NCBI GenBank assembly: GCA_016858145.1
Contig: JAEHOE010000048.1
Span: 372,001 to 436,000 of the forward strand
Origin: Edaphochlamys debaryana
Lineage: Eukaryota; Chlorophyta; Chlorophyceae; Chlamydomonadales
Length of the DNA stretch: 64,000 nt
Direction: 5' to 3'
Positions 8,619-50,812 of this stretch are shown piece by piece. The notes beneath the pieces are model-generated. The model saw nothing but the letters and a program-made list of their open reading frames with translations. It was not told where the DNA came from and did not search any database. A program made the position numbers and the translations under genes. How positions within the stretch are numbered: position 1 is the first letter of the stretch; every line of letters starts with the position of its first letter.

Positions 8619-11600
8619 ATGAGCGACGAAGCAAGCGCATGGCCATCGGGCGGCGCTCCAGTGCCGCCCTGGGCACGTCGGGTGGCATCCTCACGCCAGC
8701 CACCCGCTGCCCCTCCTGGTGGTCTTTCCCTCCTGGACGATGCGGACTCGGGACCTGCGCTCGGTGACAGCAAGGAAGAGCCCCTGACTCCCGCTCAGCG
8801 GCGCCTGCTGGTCGCGGCCGGTGCCGGAATCCCGGCATACCTGCTGACCAGCAGGCCCTCGCAGCAGGCCCAAGCCCTCGCGCAGCAGCCCCTGCGAGGC
8901 GCCTGGCGCGCCGGCGCCACGTACCGCCCCGCCCTGCGCGCTGCCGCCACGGCAGTGCTCACCGCAGCGACCTCCGCTATTACTGCCGGGCCCCCTCCCC
9001 CGGTACCTTTGGAGCCGCATGACGCCAAGCTGTCAGAACTCCTGGCCTTATCACAGCAGCGGCACGCGCACTGGCAGCGCGGCAAGGAGGTGCAAGAGGA
9101 GCGCCAAAGAGAAGCGCCGAGGTCTCGGGTGCAGCGCTCTAACCGGCCGCGGCCAGCAGAGGGCTCCAAGCAGGGGCGCCGAGAGCAGGAGGGGGGCGCT
9201 GCCGACGACCTTCAGTTTGACGAGAACGGGGACCTGGTGGATGTGTACTTGAAGCCACTGACGGCGCGAACACTCCAGCAGGATGTGTACGGCGCGGCCA
9301 TACAGCTGGAAACGGCGCCGCCGCCTGGGCCTTTGAGCGGTGGCGGCGGTGCGCGGGGAGAGGGCCCGTTCGCGGGTGGGCGGCTTGCGCCATCCATCTT
9401 CGAGTGCTTTGCCCGGGTGAGGCCGTGGGGTTTCCAGGCACGCCTTGCTCTTGCCTGAGCTTGCCGTCCTGCGTCAGCCTGACAGGGGCACTGACGGGTC
9501 TTCTTGCATAGCATAGGGGCGGTCTGAGCGCAACGTGCGTTGTGGGGTCCGAAGCCGCGTGGGGCAACTCGCACTTGCTTCCCTTTGCAACGCCCGTGCC
9601 CTCATGCTCTCTCCAACCGCCCCCGTCTTGTGCACAGGCCAGCCCAACGGCGCCCGTCCCCGACCAAAGCGCTCCGGGCCCCGCCCGTGCACTGCTTCTC
9701 CTCCGCTGCCTGGAGGAGGTCTACGGAGGCTCCCCTAGCGGCAACATGCGTGCCAAAATACACGAGCGTCAGGCAGCGATGAAGGGCGCGTGGGCGCTCT
9801 CCTCCGCCCTCCTGCGCTATTTTGGTAAATAACGTTGGTCCACCTGTTAGGCCTCTGCATTTGCGGACCTTACAAAGCACCGCTTTGACCCCCAGCAGCA
9901 GCTTTCTGGGTGTCAGGGTCCCGCCTGTCGTGCTTGCATATTCTGTGCTGGTCTGAGCAGTCGGCAGCGAAGGCTCAGGTCGGGCCCCGGTCCGCGGGCG
10001 GCTTGTGTTCAGGGCGGCTTGTGTGAAGGGCTGCTCGAGTGAGCCGACGGAAGCGTAGGCGCGGCGACTAGCCGGCCGGCCTTAGATACGGAACCGAAAG
10101 CCCGGGGAGTCCGAAGCCCGACCCATCCCGCCCATCCCGAACCCATTACGTTTGTGTTGCCGCTGCAGCCACGTCCGAGGCGTAGTGTGTAGCTGGTCAG
10201 GGCGGCTGGTGTGTGACGGCATGGGCCCCCTCTGCCCCTGTGCCCGTCCTTCGCAGGTGGGCCCACGCTGACGCTTCCGGAGCTCCGTCTGTTCGTGCAA
10301 GTAGTGGCGGAGCTTCATGTGAGTGCGCAATCGCAGCCGAATCAGGAATGGCGTGGGGTTTGGGTCAACCCAGCAGTGGCTGCTTACGGAGCCCTGTGTA
10401 ACTTCGGGAAGGCACGCAGGGCGCAACAGTTCTTGGGTGCTTGCTGGGCTGCCGCACCCTCGCTGCGCGTTTCCTCAATGCAGTCAGTCGCTCGCGCATG
10501 GCCCGCGTGCGGCCCGCGTTGCTCACCCGCCCGTCCGCCCCTCCGCCTCCACAGAGGCAATTCCACGCCAACCTCGACACGGGCTTGACGGAGCAGTGGC
10601 TGGGCCCCCTGGCGCCTCTCACCAGCATACACGCCGTCACGGCCATAGTCCGCGCCCTCGCGTCGGAGCTCCAGCCCCTGGGCATGTCCCTGGCACCGCC
10701 CTTCGGGCCCCCGCCGCCGCCAGCGCGCAATGCCAAGGCGGCGATCGAGGCGGCAGCAGCCGCAGTGCCGGCAGAGGCGGACGTGCAGGTGGGTGAAACG
10801 TTGTCCCGGTCGCTGCCCGCCTTGGCCTCGCAGCAAAAGTCTATTTAGGCGATCGCCGCTACTGGCGACCACGGGCAGCCGATTAACATGATGCTTTCTC
10901 GGAGCACGTGTTTAGAACGCGACTATCCCTGTCTGTCTGAGATCTCGCTCAAACCCAATCTGGCCGCCACCCCACAGGTGACCCTCGCCCAAATCGTGGC
11001 CAAGATCCATGTGGAGGCGCTGCACGATCCAAAGATCGTGGCAGCTGCCATGAGCATGCACGCCCAGGGCAAGATCGCGCGGCAGGTGCTTCCGGGGCCC
11101 GTGGCAGCCGCCTACACAGCGGCCGTGCGCCGGCTCGTCGCTTCAAAAAGATTCGCGCCGGCAGAGCTGAACAACGATACCTCGGTTGTGGTGGCAAACC
11201 TCGCCGGCGTCGCGGCGAACGGCCAGCCGCCTCCGGGCGTTCCGCCGCTCCCACGGTCCGCGTTTGGCCTCCTCGGGGGTCCGCAGATGGGCATGCCTTT
11301 CCTCACGGGCATGGGTGGGTTCCAAAAGGGCCTTGGGCACCTAGAGTTTGACCTGCTCAAAAAGTCGCGGTCGACTTTGGGGCACACGCTTCTGTCCAGA
11401 GTCATGCCCCGGCTCGGAGACACGTTGGCAACACAGGTGGGTCGTTACTCCAGGTTGACGTAAAGAGCGTTAGGAAGCCGAGCAGTACGGCGCCAGTCAC
11501 GCTTCCCTGACGCAGCCCCCCCAGAGCAGCCCCTAACTGACCAGTGTTGCCTTGGAACGCAGGTGCTGGGGGGTCTCGAGTCCCTGGCGGACCGCGAGGG

Positions 11601-13861
11601 TGCACCGCCGCGGCAGCCGCCGGCGGTGGCCGGGCCCGAGCTGCGCATCCCCGCTGGCAAGGCGGACGTACCAGAGGTTAGGGCCGACCTGGCCCGGGCG
11701 CTTCTAGCGGTCGACTTGGAGGCAGTGAGTCCGGAGGGAAGAATGGGCGGTGCTTAAGTGGAATTGTGGAGCTTTTTCCGGCTACGGCGTTGGCGTGTGC
11801 CCATCCCTCAATAAGCGAAATCACCCGCCGCGCCGCCCCTGCCCCTCGCAGCGGCCTGTGGAGGTGGCGGCGGCGCCCGCTGGCGGCGGCCTCCTGGCGG
11901 CAGTGCTGGGCACGGCGGCGCTGTCGGTGCTGCGGCTGTGCACCCTGACGGAGGTGCAGAAGGCGGCGGCGCAGGCGGGGCAGGGCGGTGGCGAAGTGGC
12001 GGCTCAAGAGGAGGTTGCGGACGCGGGGCTCGCCGCCCGCGCCCCGCCCTGCGGAGCGGCGGCGCTGCAGCCCGTGCTGCATTCCGCGGGAGGCGGAGAC
12101 GGGTGTGTGCTGATGCGGGTGCTGCCCCTGGGGTCCGAGGTGGCGGAGAGGCTGGCGAAGCACTACCTTGTGATGGCCAAGCGGGCGCCCTATGGCGCTG
12201 CCAAAGTGGATGCGGCCGACCTGAGGAGGTGCGTGCGGGAGGGCTGGGTGCAGCGGGGGAACTGGAGGACAGCCCCGTGGGCGGCTACGTTTGGTGGGAC
12301 ATGCCAGCGGGCTCGTTCGGGCCTAGGGTGTGAGGCGAGGGGTGCGCCTGCCGCTTCCGGGCTACGAGGCCGGCGGTGGCCAGAGGCTGGTCGCCTTTCT
12401 CGTCGTCGGTCCGTCTTGTCGCTCCCTGCCACCCACGTGCGCTTCTCCTGCATCGTTTCAACACGCCCGCAGGCCTGCTGAGCTGTTGCGGGTGGCGAAG
12501 GACATGGCGGTGGAGCTCGGGCTGGGGCAGCTGAGCTGCTTGGTGCCGCGCCAGCCGAAGGACCCCGACTGCATGGAAGCGGCGCTGCGGGTCCTGACGC
12601 TGGTGGGTCCTGGAGTCCTGGGGCCGTGTTGTAAGGTGGCGTGGGAGGCGGCTTGCCGCAACCCTGGGTTGTGGACGCGGGAGCCAGGCAGGGGCCGGCG
12701 GTGCTGGGTTACGGGGTGTGTGTGCTGGGGTGCTGGAGCCTGGCGTTCGAGACCTGGCGGTGGGGCGTTTCCGGGTGATCTGTGCATAGCGGGGCGCTGG
12801 TGTCGTACAGCGTTTCCCCTGCCGCAAATATGCGTCTCCCATTGCGAGCCTTTGGGTTGAGTCACGCTTCCCCCTTCGCTCCTTCGCCCACGATAACGCC
12901 CAGCTGCGTGAGGAGGTGCTGCTGCCGAAGGGCCGCGACTGTGTGGCAGTGCCGTACCTGCCGCACCTGAAGGACAACCCGTCCTTTAAGCTTCTTGCCG
13001 GCCGGCTGGGGGAGGAGATCCTGGTGCCGCTCGGCAAGGACTCTGCGGGTGAGCTCTGCGGCGCGGTGGGTTTAGTTTCCCATTGTGGGTCCCTTCTTGA
13101 GACACGCCACGCTCAGGCGCTGCCACTGGCTTATCATGCTCTTGGGCCCGGCACCCTGCAGGACGGGCGAACGGCGGCGGGGCAGGCAGCAGCGGGCGCG
13201 GCGGATTTGACAACGGTGGCGGGGACGGCTCCAGGCGGCTCCGCCAGGGCTGGAGGCAACGGCGCGCTGTGGCCTTGACACGTGGCTTGTGGTGAGAAAA
13301 GGACCACGCGGGGGGTGCTTGATTTGCCTTAAACCCGCTGCACGGACCTCACGTACCGGTAACCCAAGCGTGTTGGCACCGCCAGTGCCGGCCGGCCTGA
13401 CGCCCAATTGACGTACCCGTTTGCCCCTCCTCCTCTCCACACCCCCCAGCGAGCTCTTGGGCGCGTCGGGGCATCCCGCGGACGACGAGTTCTGGATCCT
13501 GCGAGAGCTATCTTCCAAGGCCTACACAGAGCAGGGGCGCGTCCTGGCTGACATGCACTCTGGAGGGCCGGCAGCCATGATGATGGGGATGGGGATAGCG
13601 GGAATGGCCATGGCCAGTTTCGGCGCTCCCTCTGACCGTGACCTGCGAGACGCAATTGAAGCCGAGGCAGCCTACCGACGGGGCGGGCTGTCTCCCGCTT
13701 GGGTGGACCTGCCGGGCGGGCAGTCGTTTCCGGGGGTCGGGTCGCCTTGCTCGCTGGGCTTCCTCGTGTTGGAGGTGGCCGTACCGGAGGGTGGGGCGAA
13801 GGAGGGCGGGTCGTGGCAGGGGTTGGTCCGGCCCAAGCAGCCGGCGTCCAGCTGCAGGTGA
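8619..13861 (+). CDS. Array gene 1: divergent member of unrecognised tandem family
   Basis: Eleven exons, 1,031 aa: 8619-9416, 9638-9824, 10257-10318, 10555-10788, 10978-11436, 11563-11724, 11852-12228, 12473-12602, 12904-13048, 13162-13291, 13450-13861. All phases fit. Recognisable family segments are PVPPWARR and LTPAQRRLLVAAGAGIP in exon 1, the 62-nt exon GGPTLTLPELRLFVQVV, LTEQWLGPLAPLTS (counterpart of GPRLGPVPAHLTS), AAAYTAAVRRL, CVAVPYLPHL (counterpart of VPVPYGGLG) and CELLGASG (counterpart of CGLLGVTPLP). It differs from copies 2-6: the E3/E4 intron is missing, an intron has appeared inside E3, E7 is not separate, and the acidic exon is replaced by a Gly-rich one. The C-terminal exon (13450-13861) contains Met/Gly-rich and Gly/Pro-rich segments not seen elsewhere. 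Function unknown. An inverted dispersed repeat sits in its second intron. Confidence 0.7.
10018..10197 (-). repeat. Dispersed ~180-bp repeat, copy 3 (inverted)
   Basis: Reverse complement of the repeats at 2283 and 3082, including both ends (TGTGAAGGGCTGCTCG at left, GTAGCTGGT at right). It lies in an intron of array gene 1 and, like the other two copies, is antisense to its host transcript. Confidence 0.75.
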
Positions 13862-14498: not shown

Positions 14499-17400
14499 AT
14501 GCTGCCGCCCTGGGCCAGGCGCAGCCGGCGATGGATGCCCCCGAGCGATGAACCACCTCAGGCCTCGCCAGCGGGCATGGCAACAGCGTTGTCAGGTGCC
14601 GCCGACAGCTCTGGGCCGGCCCTCACGCCCGCGCAGCGGCGCCTGCTGGTGGCGGCCGGTGCGGGCATCCCGGCACGCCTGCTGTCCAGCCGGCCCTCGC
14701 AGCAGGCCCAAGCCCTCGCGCAGCAGCCCCTGCGAGGCGCCTGGCGCGCCGGCGCCACGTACCGCCCCGCCCTGCGCGCTGCCGCCACGGCAGCGCTCAC
14801 GGCAGCGGCCCTGGAGCCTGCCGCGCCTGCTGCCAACCCCCTGGCCCCTGAGGCCCTTGCACACTGGGCGACGCCAACCCATCTCTCCACCCTCCAACAG
14901 ATGTACAGCCTCGTGGAGCGCGATAGGATCGCGTCTCAGCCCACCGCCGCCTCCACAAAGGCAAACCAGGGCGAGGGTGCTCGCAACGAGCGCAGTCCCA
15001 AGCCCTCCCCAGCCGCCCAGCGGAAACTTGGCCTCCGCGGCGCCAGCGGCGGTGACAATGCCGAGGGCGGAGGCGAAGCCGACGATAGTGTCATTCAGAT
15101 GGTGTTGGGGCTTGGCACAGACCAGCTGAAGTCCATGAGCAGGGAGGAACGGGAGAGGTTGCGGCAGCTGGCGAGCGGGCAACGGCTCTTCGATGAAGCC
15201 GTGCCCACCTTGGTCTATTTGGTTAGCGGCTCAGCGGCGGACACGCCCGAAGTCTGCTATTCAGCCGACTTTCTCTCATGCTGCACCTTCCACCGTCTGG
15301 CGTGGCGTCTGTCGGTCATGGAGGGTGCGCACGGCGAGCAGCTGCCGTCAGACGAGGCGGAGCGCGAGGGCCTCCGTGCGCACCTTTCCAGCCACAACGT
15401 CTACTACGTAAACTATCCCCATCGCGTGTTGGCGGGTCGCGCGCTGCTTCTCACGCGACTTGGAAACTTGCTGGTGACTGCGCCCGAGTACTTCCGGCTG
15501 ATGGCGCTGCACGACGTTCGCCTCAGCACGCAGTGCTGGCTGGACTCCCTGGTGTACGAGCTGTCGGGAATGTACGGCAAATCCGGTGCGTGAACAGCAC
15601 GTGTGCTGTCGTACGTGTACGGTTATTGCGTGTACTTCCTTGGCCTGCAATGCACAGGTGTCTGGGTGTGATGCGAGGGCTTCCTGATGGGTCCACGCCC
15701 TTGCAGAGGACCGCGGCATCTCGCTGACGGAGCTGCGGCTGCTCACCTTCCTCCTGGCATCCCTGCACGTGAGAGTTTTGCTAGCTGGCAACAGATTCTG
15801 GTAGAGGGTTGAAAGCGGCGAACCGGACTCGGCCGGCGCCTTAGCGTGCCGGCCCCTTGGGTGTTACCTTCGGGGAATCGCAGGCAGGCGGACGGGCGGG
15901 CGGGGCATGCCGAGGGAGCGACTCAAGCTCAGTTAGTTGCGCATCGCACTGTTCCGCATGTGCGCAGGAGAGGGCCTGCTCCTACCGGGTGGATGCAGAC
16001 CTTCGCGGCTCCGGCCCCCGGCTGGGCCCCGTGCCCGCCCACCTGACCAGCATGGGCGTCCTCATCCGCATCGTGCGGTACGCGGCGGAGCGGTTCCTGC
16101 ACGTGCCGCTGCCGCCGGAGTGGCAGGCCTCTGATGCGGGTTCACACCCAACGGGCGGCAAGCTCACGGCTGCCAAGGCAAGAGCGGCTCTGGCCGTAGC
16201 ACCGGCGCGGTGGGCCGGCGGCGAGGGCCTGCTGTCAGAGGACAATCAGCGCAAAATCATGAGGGCTGTCGCGTTGCTGCACTGGCCCGCCGCCATCGAC
16301 CCCAAGGTGGCGGAGGCGGTGCAGGAGGCGGTGGCCGCCGGCGGGGGCTCCCTGGACGATGTGGAGGCGCTGGCGGGGGCGCTCGAGTCCCCCAGGACCA
16401 AGGCCGGCAGGTGGTGATATATACCGCGCATGGGCTTAATGCTTAGTCCCCCATGGTTTCTCGCTCCGCGGCGCGGCGCTTTCGCCCGCGGGCTGCCCCG
16501 GTCGTGTTACGTCTACCCATTTGGCCATGTGCTCGTGTCCTCGCTATGTCTCCCGGCAACGAGATTGCCTGCCAGTGGGTTGACTCACGTCGTCCTCGCC
16601 CTCCATCCTCCGTCCTCCGCCCCGCAGAGTCTACGCCAGCGCCGTGCGGCGCGTGCGGAGCAACATGGTGTGGGATCATCGATCCTCCCACATTGGCAGC
16701 ATGGGCGCTGACGTGGCACGGAAGCTGTCCGACGGGCGGAGCAACGCGGAAGCCATCGCCGTCGCCAAGATGGAGTGGGACGAGCAGGAGTGGCTGCAGC
16801 TCGATCGCGCCCTGACTGAAATGGTGGAGTGGCTGCCGGAGGCAGTGCTACAGCCGCTGCGGGCAGCCCCGGCAGAGGACCAGGACGACGAGGAGGAGGA
16901 GCTGGCGGGGCAAGCGGGTGCGCCAGGGGGCGAAGCGGCGACGCAGGTTGGCGCAGCACCGGCAGCGGTGGAGCTGCGGAGCGAGGCGCTGGGGCGGCTC
17001 CTTCCGCGCATGGAGCTAACGAGACTGATCGGCGACAAGGTGGGTGGGTGAAGGGCTGCTCGTGTGGGCCGGGGAGTGCCTTTGCAGGGCGGGGCTGCGG
17101 GGCCGCCTGGACGTCAGGGCGTGGGCATGGCGGAAGCCGGTTCGGCAGCAGCTTGGAGCACAAGTCAAGCACCATGGAAGCCTCAAACCGCCACTGCTTC
17201 ACATGTGACACGCCGATGACACGTCTTCTGACCCCTTTAAACCCGGCAAAAACAGGGTACCGTCGCAGCCTGTGGTGTGCCCGCCACTGCCCTTGCGGTA
17301 GGGGCCGCCGCCGCCGCCAACGCCCTCCGCGACTGGCTGGGGACCGTGTTTGCGCCTCTGGTCATGAAGAACCCTAGCCGGAGAGGCGCCGTGCACCCCT

Positions 17401-19588
17401 ACAGCCGGCGGCCCGCCCTGCCGCCCTGGAAGCGCGCCCCTGCCAATGGCATCACCCGTGCTCGGTTCGCTGGCAGCGACGGCAACGGCAGTGCCGGCAG
17501 CGGTTGGAAGCCCTTCGCCTGGCTCCGTACGGAAGCAATGGTCCTGGGCGTAACGCTTGCCGTACGGGAGCCGGGGGGGCCAGTGGAGGTGACCCGCTTC
17601 AACTCCAAGCCAGACGGCGGGGTCCTCACTCGGACCGTGGCCATCGTCCTGGAGGCGGCGTGTAGGCTCGAGCCCGCCCCGCTCAACTTCGCAAGATGCG
17701 TTGCCGCGCAGGCGGAGGAGGAGAGCGGGCGGTGAGTGGGCGGGTGGGCGGCTGCGATGTCCACAGGGTTGTCGTGTCGGCCCTTCGCCGGCCGTTTCGG
17801 GCTGGACTGACTGCAACAGGATTGTGGTGTTGCAACCAGGGGTCCTCTCAGCTGTGCTTTGCTTTTTGCCTGCAGAGTGGCTTCCCTGGCGGCGGCGGTG
17901 GAGGCTGCGATTTTGCGGGATGGGGCGGCAGTGGTCGACGTGGGGGGCGGAGGCGGCACCGACTGTTACGGACCGACGAGGCCTGAGCAGACCCGGCGGC
18001 GGCGGCAGGCGGCTGAGGCGGAGCTGGCCGATGCGGTGGAGGCCCTGGCGCAGGTGGGTGGGTGGGTGGCAGTAAGGGGTTGTACAGTTCCCGCGTGTTC
18101 CACGGGTAACCCGGGCGTTGGATAGCCCCGCTGAAGCCCTCTCGCGTGGCTCTTCCTCTGGTCCCCCTCGCTTGATCGTCTATCTGTTGCCCTTGTGCGC
18201 GGCCTCCTCCCGCTGGTACCTGCAGGTGTGGTCACGGCTACCGAAGGTGCGTGGGGCGTGGCCGTGCCACCCGAAGTCCCACGCTCACGGGAGCCTTGCT
18301 TGGCTGTCGCCATCTGCGTTTGCATGCAGGGGCACGGCTGCATTCTCGTACCCGTGCCGTACGGCGGCCTTGGCTCAACAACGGCGGTACGCCACGCATG
18401 TGCCTCTCTTATGAATGAGCTGTTAACCCCCGTAGGTGAGGTAAACCAGCTAGTTTAGGACCCCAACAGCCCAGCGCCAATCCCTTTCCGACCTTGCGGC
18501 ACCGGCACCGGGGCTCCATTGGACGCACGCGGGACGTATTGCACATTCTGCTCCAGAACCCCAGGCCCGAGCAGCCCCATGCCTAGCTGCGCCATGCGGG
18601 TGCTTGCGAGGAGCGCTCACGCACGTGTCACCGCTCCCGGCCTTCCCATCCGCCCGCACCACAGTGCTACCCGACGGCGAGGGCGAGCGCCAGCCAGCCA
18701 TTCCGGACGAGTGGGCGTCGCTGCTCTTCTCAGACTCAGAATCGGATTCGGACTCGGACGACGATTCGGACGGACCGGACAGACTGGACAAGCTGTCGCT
18801 CCTGTCGCGCTGGCCCGCGTACGGCAGGGGCCTCGGCCGTGGCGTGTGGTCCTCGTGGCGGCGGCAGCGGGCAGCCGTGCGGGCGCAGCTTCGAGATGAG
18901 ATGCCCCGGCCATTCAGAGTGAGCGCACGCGAGCGGGCCATGCTCGAGTACGGCGCTGGCCTCATGCGGGCGTCATGCGGGTGAGCGGGGCTGCGGAGGG
19001 CGCCTGGCTGCTTGGGGGCTGGGGCGCGGGGCGGGTGTTGTCCGGCAAGGGAATCGTTAGGGTCAGCAGAGGAGCAGTATTGCGGGATTGCGAGGGCGGT
19101 GCGATGGCTGGGAGGGGCAGAGGTTGCGCAGGCCTCAGGCCGGGTGGGCAGCCGTGCAGGGCGGGCAGGGCCGGCGTACCAGGAGGGCCTGCCTGAGGGG
19201 TCAGGGTAGGCCAAGGCATTGAGTGGCTGTGCTGTGGACGTGCGCTTACGAATGGGTTGTGCATTGCGTGCCTTGGCGCAGGCTACTCGGGGTCACGCCC
19301 CTGCCCTCAGCCCACGACCCCCTGGTCGACGAGGCACACATGACGGTTGCGGCGAGGGAGATTGGGGAGTGGCGCCAAGCACATCACATGGACGAGGAAG
19401 TACGGCAGATGTCTCGGGACCGCGCACGCCGTGTGCTGGATGTTGGCGAGCTGGCTGAGGCGGGAATCGCCCTCGTCGTTGTTGGGAAAGCCAAACAGCG
19501 TAAAACCTGGGAGGAGATGTTGGCTGGAGCGAATGAGGAGGGAGCCCAGGCGGCGGCGAACGCGGATGCTACCCCTTGGGACCCCTGA
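14499..19588 (+). CDS. Array gene 2: unrecognised tandem family, reference copy
   Basis: Ten exons, 1,135 aa, the clearest model of the family: E1 14499-15585, E2 15707-15768, E3 15968-16410, E4 16628-17039, E5 17256-17731, E6 17876-18053, E7 18226-18246, E8 18330-18435, E9 18665-18980, E10 19282-19588. Exon-end phases 1,0,2,0,2,0,0,1,2 are shared with copies 3-6. Residues 1-362: PPWARR, the Arg/Ala-rich block, and a helical region with RLAWRLSV and YPHRVLAGRALLL. 363-383: LTELRLLTFLLASLH. About 383-530: GPRLGPVPAHLTSMG, then DPKVAEAVQEAVAAGGG. 531-668: WLPEAVLQPL. 668-827: ALAVGAAAAANALRDWLG. 827-886: DGAAVVDVGGGG. 887-893: microexon VWSRLPK. 894-929: VPVPYGGLG. 929-1034: acidic SDSESDSDSDDDSD tract and basic tail. 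1034-1135: LLGVTPLPS and LDVGELAEAG. No known domain recognised; the Arg/Ala-rich N-terminus could include an organelle-targeting peptide (inference). Confidence 0.8.
18226..18246 (+). other. 21-nt microexon E7 (array gene 2)
   Basis: Flanked by TGCAG/ and /GTGCGT, it encodes VWSRLPK. The same-length exon occurs at 24219-24239 (VSSKLPQ), 30214-30234 (VSSQLPQ), 38420-38440 (VQAQRPQ) and 44555-44575 (VPSQLPE). Both flanking introns are phase 0, so skipping would keep frame. Confidence 0.75.
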
Positions 19589-20454: not shown

Positions 20455-23400
20455 ATGCCGACCGGCGACCGGTCGGTGCCGCCCTGGGCCAGGCGCAGCC
20501 GGCGATGGATGCCCCGGAGCGATGCACCGCCTCAGGCCTCGCCATCGGGCACGACAGCAGCGTTTTCAGGTGCCGCCGACAGCACTGGGCCGCCCCTGAC
20601 GGCCGCCCAGCGGCGCCTGCTGGTGGCGGCCGGTGCGGGCATCCCGGCACGCCTGCTGTCCAGCCGGCCCTCGCAGCAGGCCGCAGCCCTCGCGCAGCAG
20701 TCCGTGCGAGGCGCCTGGCGCGCCGGCGCCACGTACCGCCCCGCCCTGCGCGCCGCCGCCACGGCAGCGCTCACGGCAGCGGCCCCCGAGCCTGCCGCCG
20801 ACCCGCTGGCCCCTGAGGCCCTCGCCAAGTGGGCGGCGCCAAGCGAGGTCGAACCCTCCCAACACATCTACAACTGGGTGGGGTTTAAGAACAGCGCGGC
20901 AAAGGCCAAAGCAGTCAAAGCCAGCGAGGCTGACGGAGCCAAGAAAGAGCGCAGTCCCAAGCCGTCGCCCGACGCCAAGCGGAAAGCTGGCGCACGCAGC
21001 GCCGGCGGTAATGTCCTGGACGGGGAGGCGGACGTTGATGTGGACGATGGGCTCACCATCGTGGAGCTCGGGATCAGCAAGCAAGAGCTCCAGTCGATGA
21101 GCAAGGATGCGCGGCAGAGCCTGTGGGAGCTGGCGTGCGGGCATCGCTTGTTCTTCGAGTCCGCGCCCTCTATGGCCCAATACATTAGCGGAAGGGCGGC
21201 GAGCGGGCGGGACGCGGATGAGTTCATAAGCGTGTACAAAGGGAACTGCAGCACGTACCGCCTGGCATGGTGCCTGTCGGTGCTTGAGGGCGCTTACGTC
21301 AGTCAGCTGCCGCCGAGCGGAGCGGCGCGGGAGGAGCTTGCTTCGTACCTGGCGTGGCCAAACATCTTGTACAGCGACTTCCCGTACCGCGTGTTAGCGG
21401 GGCGCACGCTGCTGACTTGCCGGCTGGGTCACATGCTCGCAACGTCGCCGGAGTTTGCGCAGATGAGGTCTCTCCGCCACCTGCACCACAGCACGCAGTG
21501 CCTGCTGGACGCCCTGGCGCACGAGCTGGTGGAGATGTACGGCGCACACGGTACGTCGGCAGTACGTGTACTGCGTTGATGAGGGCTGCGGGGCCCATTC
21601 ATTACTCACAGCAGCTTACGGTCTGACCGTAGTGTTATGAAGATCTTTACAAACTGTCGCTCTTGTGGCCCTCAGACAACCGCGGCCTCTCGCTGCTGGA
21701 GCTGCGGCTGCTCACCGTCCTGCTGGCGTCCCTGCACGTGAGACGTTGACCGCTGGGGGCCGGTGATAATTGTAGGGGTTGTTTGTACAGATTTCGGATG
21801 TCAACTGGTGTGCACGGGTGCCTCTTGCACTCAGAGCTCAAGTCCAACAATATCTTGGGAGGCGGCAGGGGGGCACACTGTCGGCGCAACACCGCTCTAA
21901 CGGCACAACGCATCGCACCGTTCCGCATACCCGCAGGACAGGGCCTGCTCTCGTCCTGACACGGACATGCACGGCTCCGGCCCCCGGCTGGGCCCCGTGC
22001 CCGCCCACCTGACCAGCATGGGCGTCCTCATCCGCATCGTGCGGTACGCGGCGGAGCGATTCCTGGCGGTGCCGCTGCCTGCAGCTTGGGAGGCTTCGGT
22101 TGCGGACTCGAAGGCAACGGGCGGCGAGCTCTCCGCGGCCCAAGCACTAGCGGCTGTGGCTGCCGCACCAGGACGGTGGCCCGGCGGCGAAGGACTGATG
22201 TCGGATCGAGACCAGCGCCGAATGATGAGGGCTGTCGCGTTGCTGCACTGGCCCGCCGCCACTGACCCCAAGGTGGCGGAGGCGGTGCAGGAGGCGGTGG
22301 CCGCCGGCGGGGGCTCCCTGGACGATGTGGAGGCGCTGGCGGGGGCGCTCGAGTCGCCCAGGACCAAGGCCGGCAGGTGAGACCAGTAGGGCGGCTTGGC
22401 ATCAAGCCTCCACGTCATGTCGTCTGCTGGCGGCAGCCCTGTCGTCCACGTCTCTGATGGCAGCAGCCCTTCCCCGGCGACCCAGTACCTTCGATTGCTA
22501 CCTGTCGCCATCTGGTCTTCCCACGGTTGCCTGGGCCCGCACACCCGCCTGTCTGCAAAGTGCATCGCCTGCCAGAGGGCGAACTCACGTCGTCCTCGCC
22601 CTCCATCCTCCGCCCTCCGCCCCGCAGGGCCTACGCCGGCGCTGTGCGCCGGTTTGGCGGCCAGGTGGCCTGGGACATGGCCCGCACAAACATTGGCACA
22701 ATAGCGGCGCAGCTGCAGTTTGGCGGCGAGGGCAGCGCGGGCAACGTCGCCATTGCGGCCGTGGAGTGGGACGAAGCGGAGGGTCACCAGCTGCAGCGCG
22801 CTCTTGATGGGATCGTGGACTGGCTGCCGGAGGCCGTCCTGCAGCCGCTGCCCGCGGCCCCTGCGGAGACGGCGGACGAAGAGGCGGAGGCGGAGGGGCT
22901 GGCGGCTGCAGCCAGCTGCTCTGGAGCCGGGGCGCAGGGGCAGCCGGCGGCACCGGGGTCTCCACGCGCCCCAGAAGCGACGGCCGCAGGGCAGGCGGCG
23001 GCGGCGACGGCGGGGGCGAACGCCGGGATGCCTGCGGTGGAGCTGCGGGGGGACGCTCTGGGGCGGCTCCTGCCTCGCCTGGAGCTGGCGCGATTGATGT
23101 CCAGGAAGGTGGGTGAGCGCAGTGGCAATTCCTGGACGGGCGGGTATAAGGAGCCGCCTGAACGTCAATGCGCGGGGTCGAGCTCCCGGGGCGGGGCAGC
23201 ACAGGCTCATAGCGGCAAGCAGGGGTCGTTGCGGCAGCACACCGTCACCATGGAACGCCCCCAAACCTGTTTTGGCTGTGTTCGCTTCCGCCCCTGCGAC
23301 CCGGCCAAACGGCAGGGCTCGGTGGCACCATCCGACGGGCCTGCCGCCGCATTAGCGGTGGGCGCCGTCGCAGCAGTCAACGCGCTGGGCGACTGGCTGG

Positions 23401-32307: not shown

Positions 32308-32715
32308 GCCAATGGCAGTAGCAGTGGCGGTTGTGGGTTTTTGACGCAGAGGAGGAAGGGCGGATCAAAGGTCCCAGAAGTTCCTGGAGTGGCGGCCAGT
32401 GGGGCTAGAGGTTCTTCTCTCTCTAGAGTTGCTGTGCGTGGGAGAGCGCTGCTGGCTGACCATCCCCCCCCCCCACTATCAACCCCGGAGAAGATGAGGC
32501 ACACTCAGAGGGCCAATGGCAGTAGCAGTGGCGGTTGTGGGTTTTTGACGCAGAGGAGGAAGGACGGATCAAAGGTCCCAGAAGTTCCTGGAGTGGCGGC
32601 CAGTGGGGCTAGAGGTTTTTCTCTCTCTAGAGTTGCTGTGCGTGGGAGAGCGCTGCTGGCTGACCATCCCCCCCCCCCACTAACAACCCCGGAGAAGATG
32701 AGGCACACTCAGATC
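32308..32715 (+). repeat. 204-bp direct tandem duplication
   Basis: Two adjacent, almost identical 204-bp units (32308-32511 and 32512-32715). Each starts GCCAATGGCAGTAGCAGTGG and ends GAAGATGAGGCACACTCAGA. The unit is 68 codons long, so an open frame (32239-32733, 164 codons) passes through both copies. Both contain a poly-C run of about 10 bases. The encoded peptide is unrecognised, and I do not call it a gene. Confidence 0.85.
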
Positions 32716-40681: not shown

Positions 40682-43600
40682 ATGATAATTCAAGAGTCAC
40701 AGACTGGCGGCCTGTGGATGCCGCCCTGGGCGCGCAAGCTGCGAAGTCCGGGCAGCAGCGATAGACCATCTCAGGCCGCGCAAGCGAGTTCGAGTGCCGC
40801 CGACAGCACTGGGCCGGCCCTTACCCCAGTTCAGCGGCGCCTGCTGGTGGCGGCCGGTGCGGGCATCCCGGCACGCCTGCTGTCCAGCCGGCCCTCGCAG
40901 CAGGCCCAAGCCCTCGCGCAGCAGCCCCTGCGAGGCGCCTGGCGCGCCGGCGCCACGTACCGGCCCGCCCTGCGCGCCGCCGCCACGGCAGCGCTCACGG
41001 CAGCGGCCTCCGCTGGCACCGCCACTGCCGCCGCTGCACCTGCGCGCGCGAAGCCCAGCCCCCTCGAAGCGGCCATATCAGACGAAACGTGGCCGGAGAC
41101 AGCCTGGCTTTACGACAGCGCTTTTCGTTGGATAAACCAAACCCGCTCCGAGTTGGAGCAGCTGCGCTCCAAGTCGGAAAGCGGCAAGGCCAGGTCAAAG
41201 GGCCGCAAGCCCAAGCGGACTGCGGCAGAGGCACAGCCCCAGCCTCGGCGAGCCTCACTCCCAACGCCCGGGCAAAACGGCAGCGTCGGGGACAGCGACA
41301 GCGGTGATCTCGACCCAAACTCCATACACGTTGACAGCGCTGAAGCAGCTGCGTTGGGGTTCGCCGGCAAGGGCGACTTGCCGCGGCACGCCGACGTACG
41401 GCACGAGATCCAGCTCCTGATTGCAGCCCTCCTCGTGATCGACATCGAGCATGACGTACACGGGCTGAGCACAAGCCTGGGAGGGGTCCACGCGGCTCAC
41501 GTGGTGGGCTCTTCAATGACGTCCGATGCAATCGCCCGGTGCAGCACGGCGGAACGGCAACGGTTGGCGTGGCGTGCGTCGGTTGTTGAGGGCGCCTACG
41601 CCTCCCTTCCGGACCCAAGCAGCAATCCGCGCGAGTACGGCGAGCTGGATTCGTATCTGAGCTTCCCAGAATACGGGTGGACCGATTATCCGTTCCGCAT
41701 GTTGCTCGGCCACGCTATCTGCTGTGTGCGTATGCTCTCCATGATGCTGGATCTGGGCGGCTCGAGGCCGTACACGCTGCCGGACAAGCTCGTACTGCTG
41801 CGCCGCCACCTGCAGTACGAGCTGGACACGCTGGTGGATAACCTGGTGTCCGCATCTGGCCATGGTGCGTCCAAAACTAGGGTGGGGTCCCTGTAGGGCT
41901 CCGTACAGGCGGTTACGGTAGTGCAGTGACACACGCCGATTGTGTTCGTGTCCACAGGTGGCCCCCGGCTCACGCTGCCGGAGCTGCGGCTGCTCACCTT
42001 CCTGCTCGAAGACTTGCACGTACGTGGAGCTGGCAGGATTGCGGGCTGGGCACTGGCAGTCAGCACATTGGGGAGCCCTGGCTGCACACCGTGTCCGGCA
42101 CACTGGCGTTAGGACCGGCACATAGCCCTTGCCGCCACGCACACACACCTCAGTTTACCACAGGTTCTGGCCCTGGAGCAACTCGCCACTTCTGGCCTCG
42201 GCCAGGCAATGCAAGATCGAATGCACCTGCTGCATGACCGCCCCTCAGGCCGAGGCATGCTCGCGCGAGGACACGGACATGCTGGGCTCCGGCCCCCGAC
42301 TGGGCCCCGTGCCCGCCCACCTGACCAGCATGGGCGTCCTCATCCGCATCGTGCGGTACGCGGCGGAGCGGTTCCTGCACGTGCCGCTGCCTGCAGCGAA
42401 AGCGGACGCTGTGGATCTGCAGGGGGCCGAAGGTGGCGGCAGCGCCTCTGCTGACGGCGCCGAGCTGACCCCTGCGGGAGCGGCCGCGGCTCTTGCGGGA
42501 GTGCCGGAGCAGTGGGGCGCCTCGCAAGCGGTGATGTCGGAGCAGCTTCAGCGCAGAGTTGTGCACGCGATTGCCAGCCTGCACTGGAACGCCGCCACTG
42601 ACCCCAAGGTGGCGGAGGCGGTGCAGGAGGCGGTGGCCGCCGGTGGGGGCTCCCTGGACGATGTGGAGGCGCTGGCGGGGGCGCTCGAGTCGCCCAGGAC
42701 CAAGGCCGGGAGGTGAGACCGGCATAGCGGCTTGACTGGGCTTGGCCTGAGCCAGAGGCCCGTTATGTTGAGGGGTGCGTTGTTGCACAAGGTCCGATCC
42801 CTCAAGGTGTGCACGGGCAGCTGCCACAAGCCATCCAGCCACGCCGCTCCCACTCCCTGCAGCCCTGCTTATGTCTCCGCCCTCCGCCCCTCCGTTCCCC
42901 AGGGCATACGCCAACGCTGTGCGGCGCGCACGGAGCCAGGCGACCTCTAGTCTGGGCCCAGACGACGTCACCCTGGCTGCGGCCCCAAGGGAAAGGATGT
43001 ATGGTGACAAGCGGGGGGACGCTGAGGCCGTGTGGCTGGCGCGCGCACGGCTGGCAGACCTGGAGTGCGATGCGCTCAAGGACGCTCTCGACGCCGTGGA
43101 GGAGTGGCTCCCTCGAGCGGTGCTGCAGACCCTGCCGCCCGCGCCGCCGCAGCCTGAGCGGGGCGCAAAGGCAGCTGAAGCAGGGCCGGGCGCGGGCGTT
43201 TGGGCGGGGTCAGGGGCACACGCGGAGGCAAAGCCAACGGCGCGGAGCAAGGACGGCGCGTCGGAGGGCTTGGGGCAGCTGGCCGCAGGGGGGCTGGTGT
43301 CGGGCAAGGCCGCAGCGGCAGCCGGCGCGGAGGCTCGGGCGGTGGCGGAGCTCCGGAGCGAGGCGCTGGGTCTGCTCGGGCCGCGCATGGAGTTGGTTGG
43401 AGCCCTGAGCCTGCCGGTGCGTTCTGGTAGCAGCTGGAGAGGGCGGTCGGCCGGGCTTGAGTTAGCGCCTGGCGGCTGCAACTAAGGCGATGGGCACATT
43501 TCCTCTTCCTGACCATGCCCTTCCCCTTGCCCCAGTGGTCTGACCACCCGCCGCTCCCCAAGCTCACCGCCGTCGGCGGCCCCGCAGCGGCACTGGCAGT

Positions 43601-45775
43601 CGGCGCCGCCGCTGTGGCCAACGCCCTGCGTGACTGGCTGGGCACCGTGTTCGGCCCTGTCGCCGTGGACAACCCCACAAGGACGGGCGTCGTGCACCCC
43701 CTGAGCCGGGAGCCCATACTCGCGCCCTGGGACCTGACGGCCAGAGATGCCGCCAACGGGGGCTCAGGCGGAGGGAGCCCGGGCAGTGCCGCCCAGGACC
43801 CGTTCGCGTGGCTGAGGCCTCCGTCGGCGTCCAGAGCCATGGTCCTTGGGCTGACGCTGGAGGCAACGCAAGCCGAAGGAGCAGTGCTTGTGACGCCCAG
43901 TCCGTACCTAGTGGGACTTCACGCTGCCGCGCGCAAAGCCCTGGAGGCGGCGGCGAAGCGCGACCCCGCGCCCCTGGCCGCCTCGTCCTTTGCACGAACC
44001 GGGCAGGGCGGAGAGAATGACCGGTGGGTGCGTGCCCGCTCCTGCTCGCTCCAACTGGGGCACTGTCGATTGTGGGGACGGCACCGGCTACCGTAAGCCA
44101 GAATCACATTCCCCACATTGTGATATGACGCTCAAGGGCTACCTGAGTTAAGCAAGCCAACGTCAGCCATGACTCCATGACCTCGTGTGGGGTCCTCCGT
44201 TGAGGCCCTTGGTGTTTAGTCTGACATCGGTCCATGTTCCTGGCTCTTCCTCGTTGCAGCGTCGCGTCATTGGCTGCTGCGGCTCAGCGGGTGCTGTGGA
44301 GGGACGGGGCGGTGGTGATCGATGTCGGAGGTCGCGGCGACGGCGGTTGGTACGGCGCCAGTTGGGACGAGCGGCAGCAGAGGCGGCAGGTGGCGGCGGC
44401 GGAGCTGGCGGATGCGGTGGAGGCGCTGGCACGGGTGGGTTTGCGAGGGCAGCTCGGTTGGGTGGTCGCAACCGCTGGCTCTGGAAGGCTAGTCACCTGA
44501 GGCTTCTCTCATAACTCGCTGACTTGGACCCCTGTCCATGCCCTCGCTTTGCAGGTGCCGTCCCAGCTGCCCGAGGTGAGTCGGCGAGGGAGACCGGGGT
44601 GTGCTGGCCTCCTAACTCTCGCGACGCAGGGTAACGGCTTCTACGCCGCCCTTTGGCCCCATACCGGTAACTCCGCAGGAGCAGCTCGTCGTCGTGCCGG
44701 TGTCGTACGGCGGCCTGGGAGCCACATCTGCCGTACGGGACGCCTGTGTAGCCATGATGGATCAGCTGCTGGCCCCGCCGCAACCGGAAGGTGCGATGCG
44801 CGATTGTAAATGCCGCATGAGCCCACGCACCTAGAACCGCGATTGACAAGCTGTAGTTTAGCGGCACGCCTTGTTGCGCTCTGCTTACTCTGCTGCCCTC
44901 AGGGAACGGCGCGGCAGGCGAGCCGCCCCTTGCCAGTTTGCTCCCCGAGCTCTGGGATTGGCTGGCGTTGGCTGAGGAGGGTTCTCCAGACTCAGACTCG
45001 TACCTGGATCTGGATCTGAATTCTGATGACGAGGTCGCCGAGGAGCTGCGGAGCCTGGTCCGAGCAATGCGCAGCAGCCGGGGCCGAGGCCTGCCCGCTG
45101 TGTGTGTGTCGGGCTTCTCGCACTGGGAACGGCAGTACTTCACGGCGCTCACTCGGGCCCTGTCTGGGTGAGTGCGGGACCGCATTACGGTACGGCACGT
45201 TACGGCAATCTGCACCAGCCCGTCCGTTGGCAAGGTTCTGCGTGCAGCACAGCTTCATGGGGCTAGCGGGTCGGCGGGGCAATCCATACCACTGCCGCAA
45301 GGCCCATCCCGGCCCGAACGGTTGCCGTACCGCAGCCCTGCACACGCACCGCATCGCTTCTCCCCACGGCGGTTGGACCGCCCCGCCTCGAGCCCTCCGC
45401 CACACTTACGCACCCCCTTCGCGATCCGCGCTTCCCTCCCTTCCCTTTCCGCGCGCCAGGGTCCTTGGCGTGACTCCGCTTCCCAAGTACTGTGGAGACC
45501 CAATCGTTGACACCGCAATGACGGTGTGCATGAGCGAAGACCAGGGACAGACGGGGAGGCGCGCCTACCTTGAGGCTGACATGCGCCAAAACCTCCGAGC
45601 GCGGCTGCGGTCCGTGCTGGACGTGGGAGAGCTGGCAGCGTCGGGGCTGGCGCTGGTGGTGCTGGGGGCGGAGCGGCTGCGGGAGGGCAAGGCGGCCAAG
45701 GAGGCCGAGGACGCGGCGGAGCGGGCGCTGCTGGCGGCCGAGGCGGCGCGTCCGGCCGCGGAGGAGGGTGTGTAA
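40682..45775 (+). CDS. Array gene 6: unrecognised tandem family
   Basis: Ten exons, 1,199 aa: 40682-41864, 41958-42019, 42249-42712, 42903-43416, 43536-44023, 44260-44434, 44555-44575, 44679-44790, 44903-45167, 45460-45775. Phases are as in gene 2. Start MIIQESQTGGLWMPPWARK; the internal Met directly before PPWAR is an alternative. Segments: Arg/Ala block, a longer linker with Lys-rich SKGRKPKR, RLAWRASVVEGAYASLP, YPFRMLLGHAI, TLPELRLLTFLLEDLH, GPRLGPVPAHLTSMG, DPKVAEAVQEAVAAGGG, WLPRAVLQTL, ALAVGAAAVANALRDWLG, microexon VPSQLPE, VPVSYGGLGATSAVRDAC, acidic SPDSDSYLDLDLNSDDEV, and VLDVGELAASGLALVVLG. It ends in an Ala/Glu-rich helix. It is complete, with clean splice sites. Function unknown. 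Confidence 0.8.
44555..44575 (+). other. 21-nt microexon E7 (array gene 6)
   Basis: Encodes VPSQLPE between TTTGCAG and GTGAGT. Confidence 0.75.
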
Positions 45776-46573: not shown

Positions 46574-49500
46574 CGCCTTTGAAGGAGGCAGGTAGCGGAC
46601 GGCTGCCGCCCTGGGCATTTCACAGTCCGCGATGAACGCCAAGCGGCGATGCCGCGCCTCCGGCCAACCCGACGGGGTCGGGCGAGGCAGCTGCGACTTC
46701 CGGCGCTGCTGACTGCCCTGCAACGGCTTTCACGGCCGCCCAGCGGCGCCTGCTGGTGGCGGCCGGTGCGGGCATCCCGGCACGCATGCTGTCCAGCCGG
46801 CCCTCGCAGCAAGCCGCAGCCCTCGCGCAGCAGCCCCTGCGAGGCGCCTGGCGCGCCGGCGCCACGTACCGCACCGCCCTGCGCGCCGCCGCCACGGCAG
46901 CGCTCACGGCAGCGGCCTCCGTCCCCGTCCTCATGGATGCTCAGCCGAGCACCTCGTCGTCCCGGGCTCCGCGCGCTCCCGACGCTACTCCGAGTCCCGG
47001 CGCGGACAGGGACGCTGACTTGTACCGGTCCCTATACGCCTGGGTAATCGCGGATGAAAAGGCTCGCCGGGACGACTCCCGCCAGGGCGCGCCTAAGTCC
47101 CAGCGGCCGCGCGCTGAGGCTGGGGCGCGCGCAGCGGCAGCTCGGCGGCGAACGCCGAACGCATGGCCGGCGCCAAGCTGCTAAACCACCTGCTAGTCCG
47201 ATAGCAACGTCGACAACTACAGTGACAGCGAGGAGAGTGACAGCGAGGATGCGAAGAGTTTTAAGAAGCGGGCGGCAGCGGCGTTCAGGCTGCTCAGCAA
47301 AGCGCGGCTCAATAAGCAAGCCCTGGCCCTGGAGACGTCGGCGGCCCCAGAGCGTTGCGCTTCCGGGATCTTTGAGTACGGCACTCGCGGAGGGCCGGTA
47401 CGACAAGGCCACCCGGCTGCCGGGGCGTGCGCTGTTGCTCGTCCGAGCTGCGTCAGCGCTGCTCCAGATCCCGACCGTGCACTGGCCCGGCTTGCGGCAC
47501 CGGCGGGAGCGGCTGGAAATGGATCTGGACGCCCTGGTGCAGGGCCTTGTGGTGTACTACGGTACGTACAAAGATGCCGTATTCGTACGGGCGTGGAGGT
47601 CGGTTTCGGCCTCAAGGGCCGCTAGTAGGGTGGGGATGTTGTGCAGAGAGGGCTATACCGCCAAGCCTCCTGGATTTGTCTTATTTGTATTGAGGCTTGC
47701 CACTGCAATCCCATGCCGCCCTTGACCGCAGGTGGTCCTCCGCTGACGCTGCCAGAGCTGCGGCTGCTCATCTTCCTTCTGGCCGAGCTGCACGCACGTG
47801 GGTACGGTAGTGGGCCAGGCTGTGACTTGTTGGCCCCATTTACTCTCCTACTGCTGGCAGCAGCTAGCCGGCTTGGTGCCCTTGCCGGGCCACCGGCCTC
47901 CATGCTCCTTCCATGGCCTGCAGCTGCCCTATACAGGCTCGTGTCCTCGTTCGCCTCTGAAGGGCCCAGGAGAAAGCCCGTGCGTGCCCCGTCCTGTTGC
48001 GGGATGTCGGCACCGGAGCCGGCGCCTTCCTGCAGGCGTGGGAACTGTGGGACGTGGCCAGCGTCGAGCAGGTGAGATGGGGATCGCCCATGCCGTACCG
48101 TATCTTGGCATTGTTGCGGGGCTGACAAGCTTCGCCAAAGCTTAAGGGGAATCGTCCATACCGCATCTTGGCATTGTTGCGGGGCTGACAAGCTTCGCCA
48201 AAGCTTGAGGGGGATCGTCCATACCGCATCTTGGCATTGTTGCGGGGCTGACCATCGCCAAAGCAGGCCGATGCTACCTGGCCTGGGTTTGGATTTGTAG
48301 CCAACGGCAGCGGCCGTGGCGTCAAGCGCTCCCTCGCCGGTGGCGCCTCCTCGCAAATACCGCCTGCAGGTCGAGCGCGCCGTGGACGTTGTGCGTCGGG
48401 ACTGGCTTCCCGAAGTCGACTGCGGCCGTACGGCATCGACAACGACGATGCACCGCCGTACGGCGACGCCGGGGACTGTGCGGCGGAGCTTTGGAGCGAG
48501 GCGCTGGGGCGGCTGGGGCCGAGGCTAGAGCTGGCCAGGGCCTTAGCGTCTCAGGTGGGCCCCTAGCGCTAGGGGGCAGTAGCGCCACGGACTTGGGGTA
48601 CTGCCTCATGGCACAGTCGAGTGGGCTCGGCCAAGGGTCAAGTGGAGAAGCCAGCCGCCGGGAGCACGGTTGCTTGGCTCTTTACGGAGTGGGGCAGCGT
48701 CTTGGGGCAGCTTCGTAGGGAACAGGGACTTGCCGTCCTCACCAGCAACCAATGACGCTCACCTCCCGCGTTCCGCGTTCCGACAGGAGGGCCAAGCCGT
48801 ACGTCCCGTACGCCTGGCGGCCAGTGGCGGCGCCGCAGCGGCACTGGCGGTGGGCGCCGCCAACGCCGCCAACGCCCTGCGTGACTGGCTGGGCACCGCG
48901 TTTGCGCCGATCGCTGTCGACTCGGCGTTCAGGACTGGCCTAGTGCGTCCCCTCAGCCCCGCCGCCCTGGGCCAGTGGCGGCGGCGAAGGCGCTGGCAGC
49001 GACGCTGGGGGCCGTAGCGACGCCACGTCAGCCGGCCGCGGCTGGGCCCGTTTCTCGTGGTTGCGGAGGAGCGTGCTGAGCTCGGTGGTCACGCTATCGG
49101 CGTCAACGAGCGGGCAGGCGGGGGCTGCGGTGGAGCTGACCCTGGCAGCAGATGCGCTAGAGGCTGACGTAGCCGCTGCAGCGGTCCTGGAGGTGACGGA
49201 GACGGGAAAATTGGAGCCGCTTGTGGTGGCGGCCTTTCCCCCGGCGCAGGCGATGGGCGGGAGTGACCGGTGGGTGGCAGACGGGGCGCACCGGGGCTGG
49301 TTGTGCCTCAACTGTCTGTCCCGTCCCGCGAGTCGCGATTGAACAACAAGTACCGCTCTGAGTCGTGCTGAGTCATGCTGAGATGTCGTGCTTGGTGCTT
49401 ACCCTACCCCGCAGAGTGGCCTCCCTGGCGGCGGCGCTGGTGGCGGCGCTGGCCAAGGACGGGGCGGCCGTGATGGCGGTCGGCGGGGGCGGCGACGGCA

Positions 49501-50812
49501 GCAGCGAGGGGGCGCCTGCGGAGGAGCGGCAGCGGCGGCGGCAGGCGGCGGAGGCGGAGCTGGCGGAGGCGGTGGAGGCGCTGGAGCGGGTGAGATCGGT
49601 GCGAGTGACCGGCTTACGTCTGTACCCCATCTATTAGTCACCTGCGTCTCGTCCCGGTTTGGCGCCGCTACTGCAGGTGCGCTGCCGTGATGGCGGCAAG
49701 GCGGTGTTTGTGCCCCTGCCGTACAACGGGGCTTCGTCTTCCTTGGCCGTGTCCCGTGCGTGCGTCGAGCTTCTGGAGGCCGCCGCCGCCACGGTACGTT
49801 ACCTGTACAGCTGTGGTCTCTTCCGGAGAAGTGCACAGGCATGGGCAGGAGAAGCACTTGCGTAGGCGCAGCGACGGCTAAACAGCGGATGGAGTCTAGT
49901 CCGTCAGCACTCTAGCACCCAAACCCCCGCTGCTCGCCCACACTTCGCTCGCGTTACCCTTCGCCCACTCTTGCGCCTCCCCAGACCCACGCGTGCCATC
50001 ACACAGGCCTCCTTGCGGCCAACAGGCTCCTCCGCCGCTGCAAGATCGCCGAGTCTGTGCTGCGGCTGCTGAGGAGCCCCGACCACTCCCGCTGGTGCGA
50101 GGCCCTCGACTGGGACGAACCAACTGCACATCCCCGGAAGGAGCAGGAGGAGCAGGAGGAGGAGCACGAAGCAGAGGACGGGGCGGAGGAGGAGGAGCAG
50201 GAGGAAGAGGACGGGGAGAACGCGGCCGAGGCCGGCGCACACAGCGAGGACGGCGAGCGGTCGGTTCTCTTGCAGGATGACCCCGCCTTCAGGCGTGGCG
50301 TCTACCGGGCGAGCGCGGGCCTGCCGAGGCGCCCCCCTATGCAGCTGGTGGCGGACGCGGGGGGGCTTGCCCGCCTGAACACCGCCCTCAGGCGCGCGCA
50401 CTGCCGGTGGGTGCGCGGGGGCGGGGGTGTCTTGTTGCGTGGAACAGCGGGGAGACCTGGGCGGGCCGGGGTCAAGCTGCGAGGGGCATGCCTTGGAGAC
50501 TGCGCGTCTAAGGCTATGGAATGACACAAACTGAATTACTTCCCTCCCGTGTCCCGTGTCTGCTGCCCCCGCCCACACAGCATACTGGGGCTGGAGCCGT
50601 TTCTATTGGACTCCGATGAGCTGGTCCGGCTTGCCAAGGCGGCGGCCTCGCAGGAGGAGGCCAACTGCCAGGCTGGCTACGACGCGCTCTTGGTCCGACG
50701 CCTGACCCGGCATGCGCAAGCGGTGTTGGACGTGGGGGAGCTGGCGGCGTCGGGGCTGGTGCCGGTGGTCGTGGGGGCGAGGCTTCTACGCCAGGCCAGG
50801 GCGTTGGGTTGA
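46574..50812 (+). pseudogene. Array copy 7: 5'-degraded pseudogene of the tandem family
   Basis: The E1 homologue (about 46600-47561) keeps LPPWA and the Arg/Ala block, but no in-frame ATG precedes it. The Trp codon conserved in PRWMP is TGA (46633-46635), and in-frame TAA (47182-47184) and TAG (47194-47196) stops follow. The central RLAWxxSVVEGAY region is deleted. E2 (47732-47793) is intact but has a GC donor where its paralogues have GT. E3 is absent, with tandem repeats nearby. E4 (48370-48555) and E5 (48791-49265) each show a frameshift. E6 (49415-49589), a fused E7/E8 (49677-49793), E9 (49985-50406; Glu-rich) and E10 (50581-50812; VLDVGELAASGLVPVVVG) remain open with compatible phases (0,0,2). 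The 3' half could still be expressed from an internal start, but there is no evidence for that. Confidence 0.75.
48081..48267 (+). repeat. Three-copy tandem repeat (63-68 bp) in array copy 7
   Basis: Units contain ATCTTGGCATTGTTGCGGGG followed by CTGACAAGCTTCGCCAAAGC; the third is shortened. They occupy the place where E3 is missing. Confidence 0.85.

Follow-up and report, generated by a model that had tools for sequence, protein, structure and literature searches.

A close described parallel to the locus reported here is found in the clustered protocadherins of fish, a tandem array in which, in the available text of PMC1852091, one block is homogenised at silent sites with raised GC content at third codon positions (GC3) and the rest is diverse. 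Among volvocine algae, the NCL (OPR-RAP) cluster of Chlamydomonas reinhardtii, with at least 32 genes, is described in the available parts of PMC8226300 and PMC8635915 as a rapidly diversifying tandem cluster largely restricted to one species, and the available part of PMC13126933 presents seven tandem paralogues on chromosome 10 of the same alga that are species-restricted, helical and without a Pfam domain, together with species-specific expansions of alpha-solenoid candidates. The present locus is a head-to-tail array of multi-exon genes in Edaphochlamys debaryana, and the window analysed is the whole 64,000-nucleotide (nt) stretch from 372,001 to 436,000 of contig JAEHOE010000048.1 (C48), taken from a 142-Mb assembly in 502 contigs. 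It resembles the protocadherins in evolutionary manner, but the proteins are unrelated, no sequence relation was found, and the homogenised block, which in the protocadherins is the 3' region of the variable exons, is here 189 nt inside exon 1 of complete multi-exon genes. Sequence relation to the NCL genes was likewise not found, and the family has no RAP match in Pfam scans. The chromosome 10 paralogues are ankyrin-like solenoids with an average of 68% identity over most of their length (PMC13126933), whereas near-identity in the Edaphochlamys family is confined to islands.

The window holds the downstream end of a clustered family of at least 20 copies, of which copies 2 to 6 are intact with a common exon plan and copy 7 is broken. 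By the statistics given below, a cassette in exon 1 is near-identical in 20 copies, a second block is so in copies 2 to 6 and a third in copies 2, 3, 4 and 6, and the rest has diverged. Gene models were obtained first from coding composition and splice signals and were then refined by hand against the other copies, giving the following genes (lengths in amino acids, aa):

8619 to 13858, plus strand: copy 1, divergent; the deposited protein HYH03_009710 (P0008, 1,031 aa) maps here
14499 to 19588, plus strand: copy 2, 10 exons; HYH03_009711
20455 to 25628, plus strand: copy 3, 10 exons, 1,154 aa; HYH03_009712, identical
26250 to 31775, plus strand: copy 4, 11 exons; HYH03_009713
34046 to 39982, plus strand: copy 5, 11 exons in the rebuilt model, 12 implied by the deposited protein; HYH03_009714
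40718 to 45775, plus strand: copy 6, 10 exons; first part of HYH03_009715
46645 to 50803, plus strand: copy 7, broken, with a stop before the cassette and no exon-3 module found; annotated as fused to copy 6

The models of copies 2 to 6 are open from ATG to stop and encode 1,135 to 1,246 aa; 46 of their 47 introns are GT-AG and one is GC-AG. Nine introns are common to all five copies, with phases 1,0,2,0,2,0,0,1,2 in each and positions that agree within 2 columns of the protein alignment, except for one gap-affected column in copy 6. Exon 7 is a microexon in all five:

18226 to 18246, plus strand: 21-nt microexon 7 of copy 2
24219 to 24239, plus strand: 21-nt microexon 7 of copy 3
30214 to 30234, plus strand: 21-nt microexon 7 of copy 4
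38420 to 38440, plus strand: 21-nt microexon 7 of copy 5
44555 to 44575, plus strand: 21-nt microexon 7 of copy 6

Two copy-specific introns inside exon 1 sit at different places and represent either gains in copies 4 and 5 or losses elsewhere:

27060 to 27246, plus strand: additional intron in copy 4, absent from copies 2, 3, 5 and 6
34981 to 35185, plus strand: additional GC-AG intron in copy 5, absent from copies 2, 3, 4 and 6

A sequence-only reading of the window had proposed a head-to-tail array of an unrecognised multi-exon gene family, comprising six apparently intact genes and one pseudogene with ten exons and identical intron phases. Rebuilt and deposited models agree on the array. 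The gene count stands with copies 2 to 6 open, copy 1 intact in the deposited annotation and copy 7 broken, and the nine common introns uphold the exon plan for copies 2 to 6, apart from the extra introns of copies 4 and 5; the plan fails for copy 1, whose rough rebuilt model has another exon pattern. Six of the seven peptide signatures put forward in that reading occur exactly on the plus strand of the array, and the seventh, LPELRLLTFLLAELH, is never exact and is present with from 1 (copy 7) to 5 (copy 1) changes. The stop in copy 7 is in frame within the conserved N terminus, and a repeat analysis of the window found no member of the exon-3 repeat family in this copy. Near the expected place of that module, at 48093-48281, a 63-nt unit is present three times (94% and 65% identity to the first).

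The seven copies proposed earlier are part of a larger array, and both its second subfamily and the homogenised cassette had been missed. When the entire assembly was searched with the cassette peptide (63 residues) and 24 candidates were scored, at least 20 copies of the exon-1 cassette came up, all 20 of them on C48 and within 163 kb. The gene cluster spans 256-423 kb of this contig, with cassette copies on the minus strand at 313-329 kb (four) and on the plus strand at 330-419 kb (15), besides a single one at 256 kb; 13 of the at least 20 copies lie upstream of the window, which holds the last 7, and the array extends about 115 kb in that upstream direction. Inside the window the array also appears as a seven-copy direct repeat of 300 nt on the plus strand (8665-46909, spacing about 6-8 kb). 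At about 329.0-330.4 kb of the contig there is a head-to-head switch from the four minus-strand copies to the plus-strand run. Subfamily A consists of copies 2 to 7, and copy 1 is divergent and falls between A and B. Subfamily B comprises eight copies at 330-370 kb, of which six have single annotations of 822-969 aa and two are joined in a 1,865-residue fusion, and the 256-kb copy and the four minus-strand copies form an A-like type, as found by mapping deposited proteins to the fetched loci. The A and B proteins have about 25% identity over the common plan.

A profile searched against 5.8 billion proteins yielded 14, each of them a hypothetical protein of Edaphochlamys debaryana (HYH03_009691 to HYH03_009715), and no relative outside this species was found in this or the other searches made. 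The rebuilt copy 3 equals its deposited protein exactly, copies 2 and 4 differ from theirs solely in the start codon, and the copy 6 model lies wholly inside the deposited 1,948-residue fusion with copy 7 (HYH03_009715, P0001). Copy 5 is identical except for a 21-residue insertion in the deposited protein; these residues match the beginning of exon 4 in the homologues more closely than the rebuilt model does, which implies a further intron inside exon 4. The available part of PMC8226300 describes a BRAKER annotation with stranded RNA-seq, and the deposited models are assumed here to be that annotation. As far as our literature search reaches, the family is deposited but undescribed; the proteins were already available as hypothetical, and the cassette in 20 copies and its homogenisation are new here.

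The cassette consists of 189 nt of exon 1 (LTPAQRRLLVAAGAGIPARLLSSRPSQQAQALAQQPLRGAWRAGATYRPALRAAATAALTAAA) and occurs in the window at the following positions:

8784 to 8969, plus strand: cassette in exon 1 of copy 1
14622 to 14810, plus strand: cassette in exon 1 of copy 2
20596 to 20784, plus strand: cassette in exon 1 of copy 3
26388 to 26576, plus strand: cassette in exon 1 of copy 4
34199 to 34384, plus strand: cassette in exon 1 of copy 5
40820 to 41008, plus strand: cassette in exon 1 of copy 6
46732 to 46917, plus strand: cassette in exon 1 of copy 7

Over the 190 pairs of 20 copies, DNA identity in the cassette averaged 94.3% (0.943), with a minimum of 0.889. In an ungapped count, identity drops to background within about 35 nt of the 5' edge and about 10 nt of the 3' edge, a count that overstates the sharpness of the edges; a gapped control upheld the edges between A and B, the 48 A by B pairs being 0.942 identical in the cassette and 0.48 (5') and 0.44 (3') in 150-nt flanks, against 0.45 for shuffled sequence. 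The corresponding 5' and 3' flank identities were 0.65 and 0.48 within A, 0.59 and 0.51 within B, and 0.54 and 0.57 within the A-like type. For pairs of copies 2 to 6, synonymous divergence (dS) was 0.05-0.14 in the cassette versus 0.54-0.94 over the whole gene, and nonsynonymous divergence (dN) was 0.02-0.06 versus 0.30-0.58. Two further islands were found in exon 3, and in copy 3 they are placed as follows:

21979 to 22062, plus strand: second island (GPRLGPVPAHLTSMG...AAERF), about codons 398-428
22264 to 22376, plus strand: third island (DPKVAEAVQ...TKAG) at the end of exon 3, about codons 486-533

The second island is present in all five copies, starting elsewhere at 16013, 28015, 35772 and 42291 (copies 2, 4, 5 and 6), and the third is common to copies 2, 3, 4 and 6 and is not in copy 5. 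Among copies 2 to 6, silent polymorphism affected 7 of 57, 3 of 28 and 15 of 22 codons in islands 1 to 3, and 118 of 157 elsewhere; the value for the third island is high because copy 5 falls outside it. Outside the islands, divergence affects silent and amino-acid sites alike. GC3 was raised in every island of those copies 2 to 6 that have it (5 of the 20 copies examined).

Low silent divergence in the blocks and raised GC3 fit regional gene conversion, and we infer that the blocks have been homogenised by recurrent conversion among the paralogues of the cluster. Conversion is also favoured because cassette identity is nearly equal within and between subfamilies, and because nearest neighbours conflict along the genes, copies 2 and 3 being closest overall and copies 3 and 4 in island 2 and exon 8. 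A silent-site permutation test gave a tract between copies 3 and 4 in island 3 (3 of 10,000 permutations) and weaker signals for copies 4 and 5 (24 of 10,000, in exon 10 and outside the islands) and for copies 4 and 6 and copies 2 and 4 (32 and 33); the other six of the ten pairs gave 126 to 4,575 of 10,000. The cassette peptide is under purifying selection, with 63 silent and 48 replacement changes set against 179 and 376 possible. Ordinary selection of this kind would act on the cassette alongside conversion, and the other modules would diversify.

The modules remain unrecognised, as the sequence-only reading had it: when 15 distinct members (10 deposited proteins and 5 models from the window) were scanned against Pfam, none was assigned; no match went below E 0.0085, no Pfam model recurred among the members of any scanned set, and the scans listed no MYND zinc finger of the kind seen in volvocine MYND-finger expansions. 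A structure model predicts a mostly well-modelled helical part (residues 116-535) and, at residues 709-924, the order beta1-alpha1-beta2-alpha2-beta3-(insert)-beta4, the insert before the last strand being about 110 residues and mostly helical. This strand and helix order recalls the SpoVS/Alba-like superfamily (PF04232; PMC11621453), with its Alba fold of beta-alpha-beta-alpha-beta-beta in about 90 residues; SpoVS entries took ranks 2-4 of the structural list and were its best alpha/beta rows. The family differs in having the insert and no family-level sequence match. In profile comparisons with 28 SpoVS sequences the expected region ranked first among 37 windows for P0012 and among 39 for P0006, and took the first two places among 44 for P0002, at probabilities of about 1% or less; with 5 SpoVS sequences it came top for three of four family alignments, at no more than 1.82%. 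Column shuffles reached the profile score in 2, 1, 1 and 5 of 200 cases, for windows picked after the scan. In copy 3 the putative domain would correspond to the following:

23934 to 24431, plus strand: exons 6-8, tentative counterpart of the SpoVS/Alba-like alpha/beta domain

Membership of the superfamily is unproven. Ordinary SpoVS genes lie elsewhere in the nuclear genome, at three loci (C9, C16 and C43) with at least two SpoVS pieces each and at least one piece over the Pfam cut-off; none of the genome matches to PF04232 (10) or PF01918 (2) falls at a C48 locus. The proteins may be bipartite, an invariant N-terminal adaptor for a common partner or for targeting being followed by a variable helical domain and by a C-terminal alpha/beta region of SpoVS/Alba-like topology that might bind nucleic acid, and the array might then present many recognition variants behind one common handle.

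Taken as a whole, array, conversion and bipartite proteins form the best explanation, to which we give a probability of roughly 0.55. Several observations weigh against it. After correction for 10 pairs, copies 3 and 4 alone are clear (about 0.003), three pairs stand near 0.02-0.03 and six are not significant. Within the cassette, where 13 sites are informative, a compatibility test showed no departure from permuted data: 4 of 12 adjacent site pairs were incompatible, a number equalled or undercut in 7,670 of 10,000 permutations. Block ends coincide between subfamilies, which conversion alone does not predict; the common A and B edges suggest that conversion stays possible inside bounds that peptide selection has set. 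Close relatives stay similar beyond the block, with flank identity of up to 0.97 in single close pairs within B, and copies 2 and 3 diverge little over roughly the first 126 codons. The case for expression rests on the deposited annotation. As for the alpha/beta region, no PF04232 or PF01918 match was listed by Pfam for the 15 proteins, Foldseek gave no match at E 0.001, and hhalign probabilities did not exceed 1.82%; for the one alignment made of six B sequences only, the best windows did not include the expected region. The Z scores of SpoVS lay below the caution line of 8 and, in that structural list, an unrelated transporter scored higher (7.7, in the helical part). The subfamily-A structure model was poor, with a predicted local distance difference test (pLDDT) score of 51, and no SpoVS entry was among the 50 rows listed for its structural search.

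The proteins could instead belong to a family of helical organelle RNA regulators, in the manner of the NCL OPR-RAP genes or of another alpha-solenoid group, with recognition by the helical domain and an alpha/beta part that is something else. The well-predicted helical part suits this view, and the available part of PMC13126933 lists two unannotated species-specific families of E. debaryana, with 10 and 5 members, that may be array genes. Against it, the Pfam scans of the 15 proteins gave no PPR, TPR, ankyrin or RAP match (no OPR-specific model was used), the helical part has scattered structural neighbours, and the N termini of subfamily B are not, by inspection, obvious transit peptides; we consider this explanation unlikely.

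Less likely again is that the cassette is kept identical by selection on DNA or RNA, as a regulatory element, an RNA structure, a small-RNA target or an overlapping frame. The fall of A by B flanks to the shuffled level at the same edges would accord with this, and all 20 copies keep one further plus frame open and 19 of the 20 one minus frame, which is unsurprising in GC-rich DNA. Yet the excess of silent over replacement changes shows silent sites to be the freer, islands 2 and 3 act like the cassette, and island 3 leaves out copy 5 as a unit. Nor is RNA structure likely to cause the identity: the one copy folded (copy 2) did no better than its shuffles (z -0.54).

A further reading, which we hold to be improbable and offer as speculation, is that the array is a diversity-generating locus in which the cassettes would serve both as a protein handle and as recombination footholds for exchange of modules among about 20 genes, so that this alga alone would own a rapidly changing set of Alba/SpoVS-like proteins that bind nucleic acid, perhaps directed at organellar, transposon or viral RNA or DNA.

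Very improbable is that the genes are recent duplicates whose variable parts are under diversifying selection, the cassette keeping the unselected background rate. Whole-gene dN is indeed high, with dN/dS of about 0.55-0.70 over the 10 pairs of copies 2 to 6, but dS is high too over the whole gene and low in the cassette of the same genes, and selection on protein would not lift silent divergence several-fold. A transposon or endogenous viral family, to which many copies in one genome only might point, is hardly credible given that all 20 copies found share one locus on a single contig, that nine introns are conserved, that the sole off-locus DNA match had no family-protein match by tblastn at E 0.01, that no transposase, polymerase or other mobile-element Pfam match was listed for the 15 proteins, and that no relative was confirmed in viral contigs (11 pattern matches).

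Other features of the window lie between or beside the genes. Between copies 4 and 5, at 32306-32713, is a head-to-tail duplication of 204 nt with 99% identity, and upstream of the array a 161-nt direct repeat is present at 2283-2443 and 3099-3259 (93% identical). The downstream neighbour at 62951-64000 on the plus strand encodes a C2H2 zf-met finger above the Pfam cut-off and bears a resemblance to the splicing factor ZMAT2/SNU23. On the minus strand, 58849-59847 is an open frame with a glycine-rich, kinase-like start, which we take to resemble that of MPS1/TTK; the piece had no Pfam match at E 0.01.

Being clustered at one locus and known to date from a single species, this large family bears on the origin and diversification of new gene families. 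The cassette is a clean example from nature in which homogenisation is confined to 189 nt within paralogues that have otherwise diverged far, and it allows a test of whether selection or recombination maintains short conversion islands. Should the SpoVS/Alba-like assignment prove true, the array would represent a eukaryotic expansion of a nucleic-acid-binding fold.

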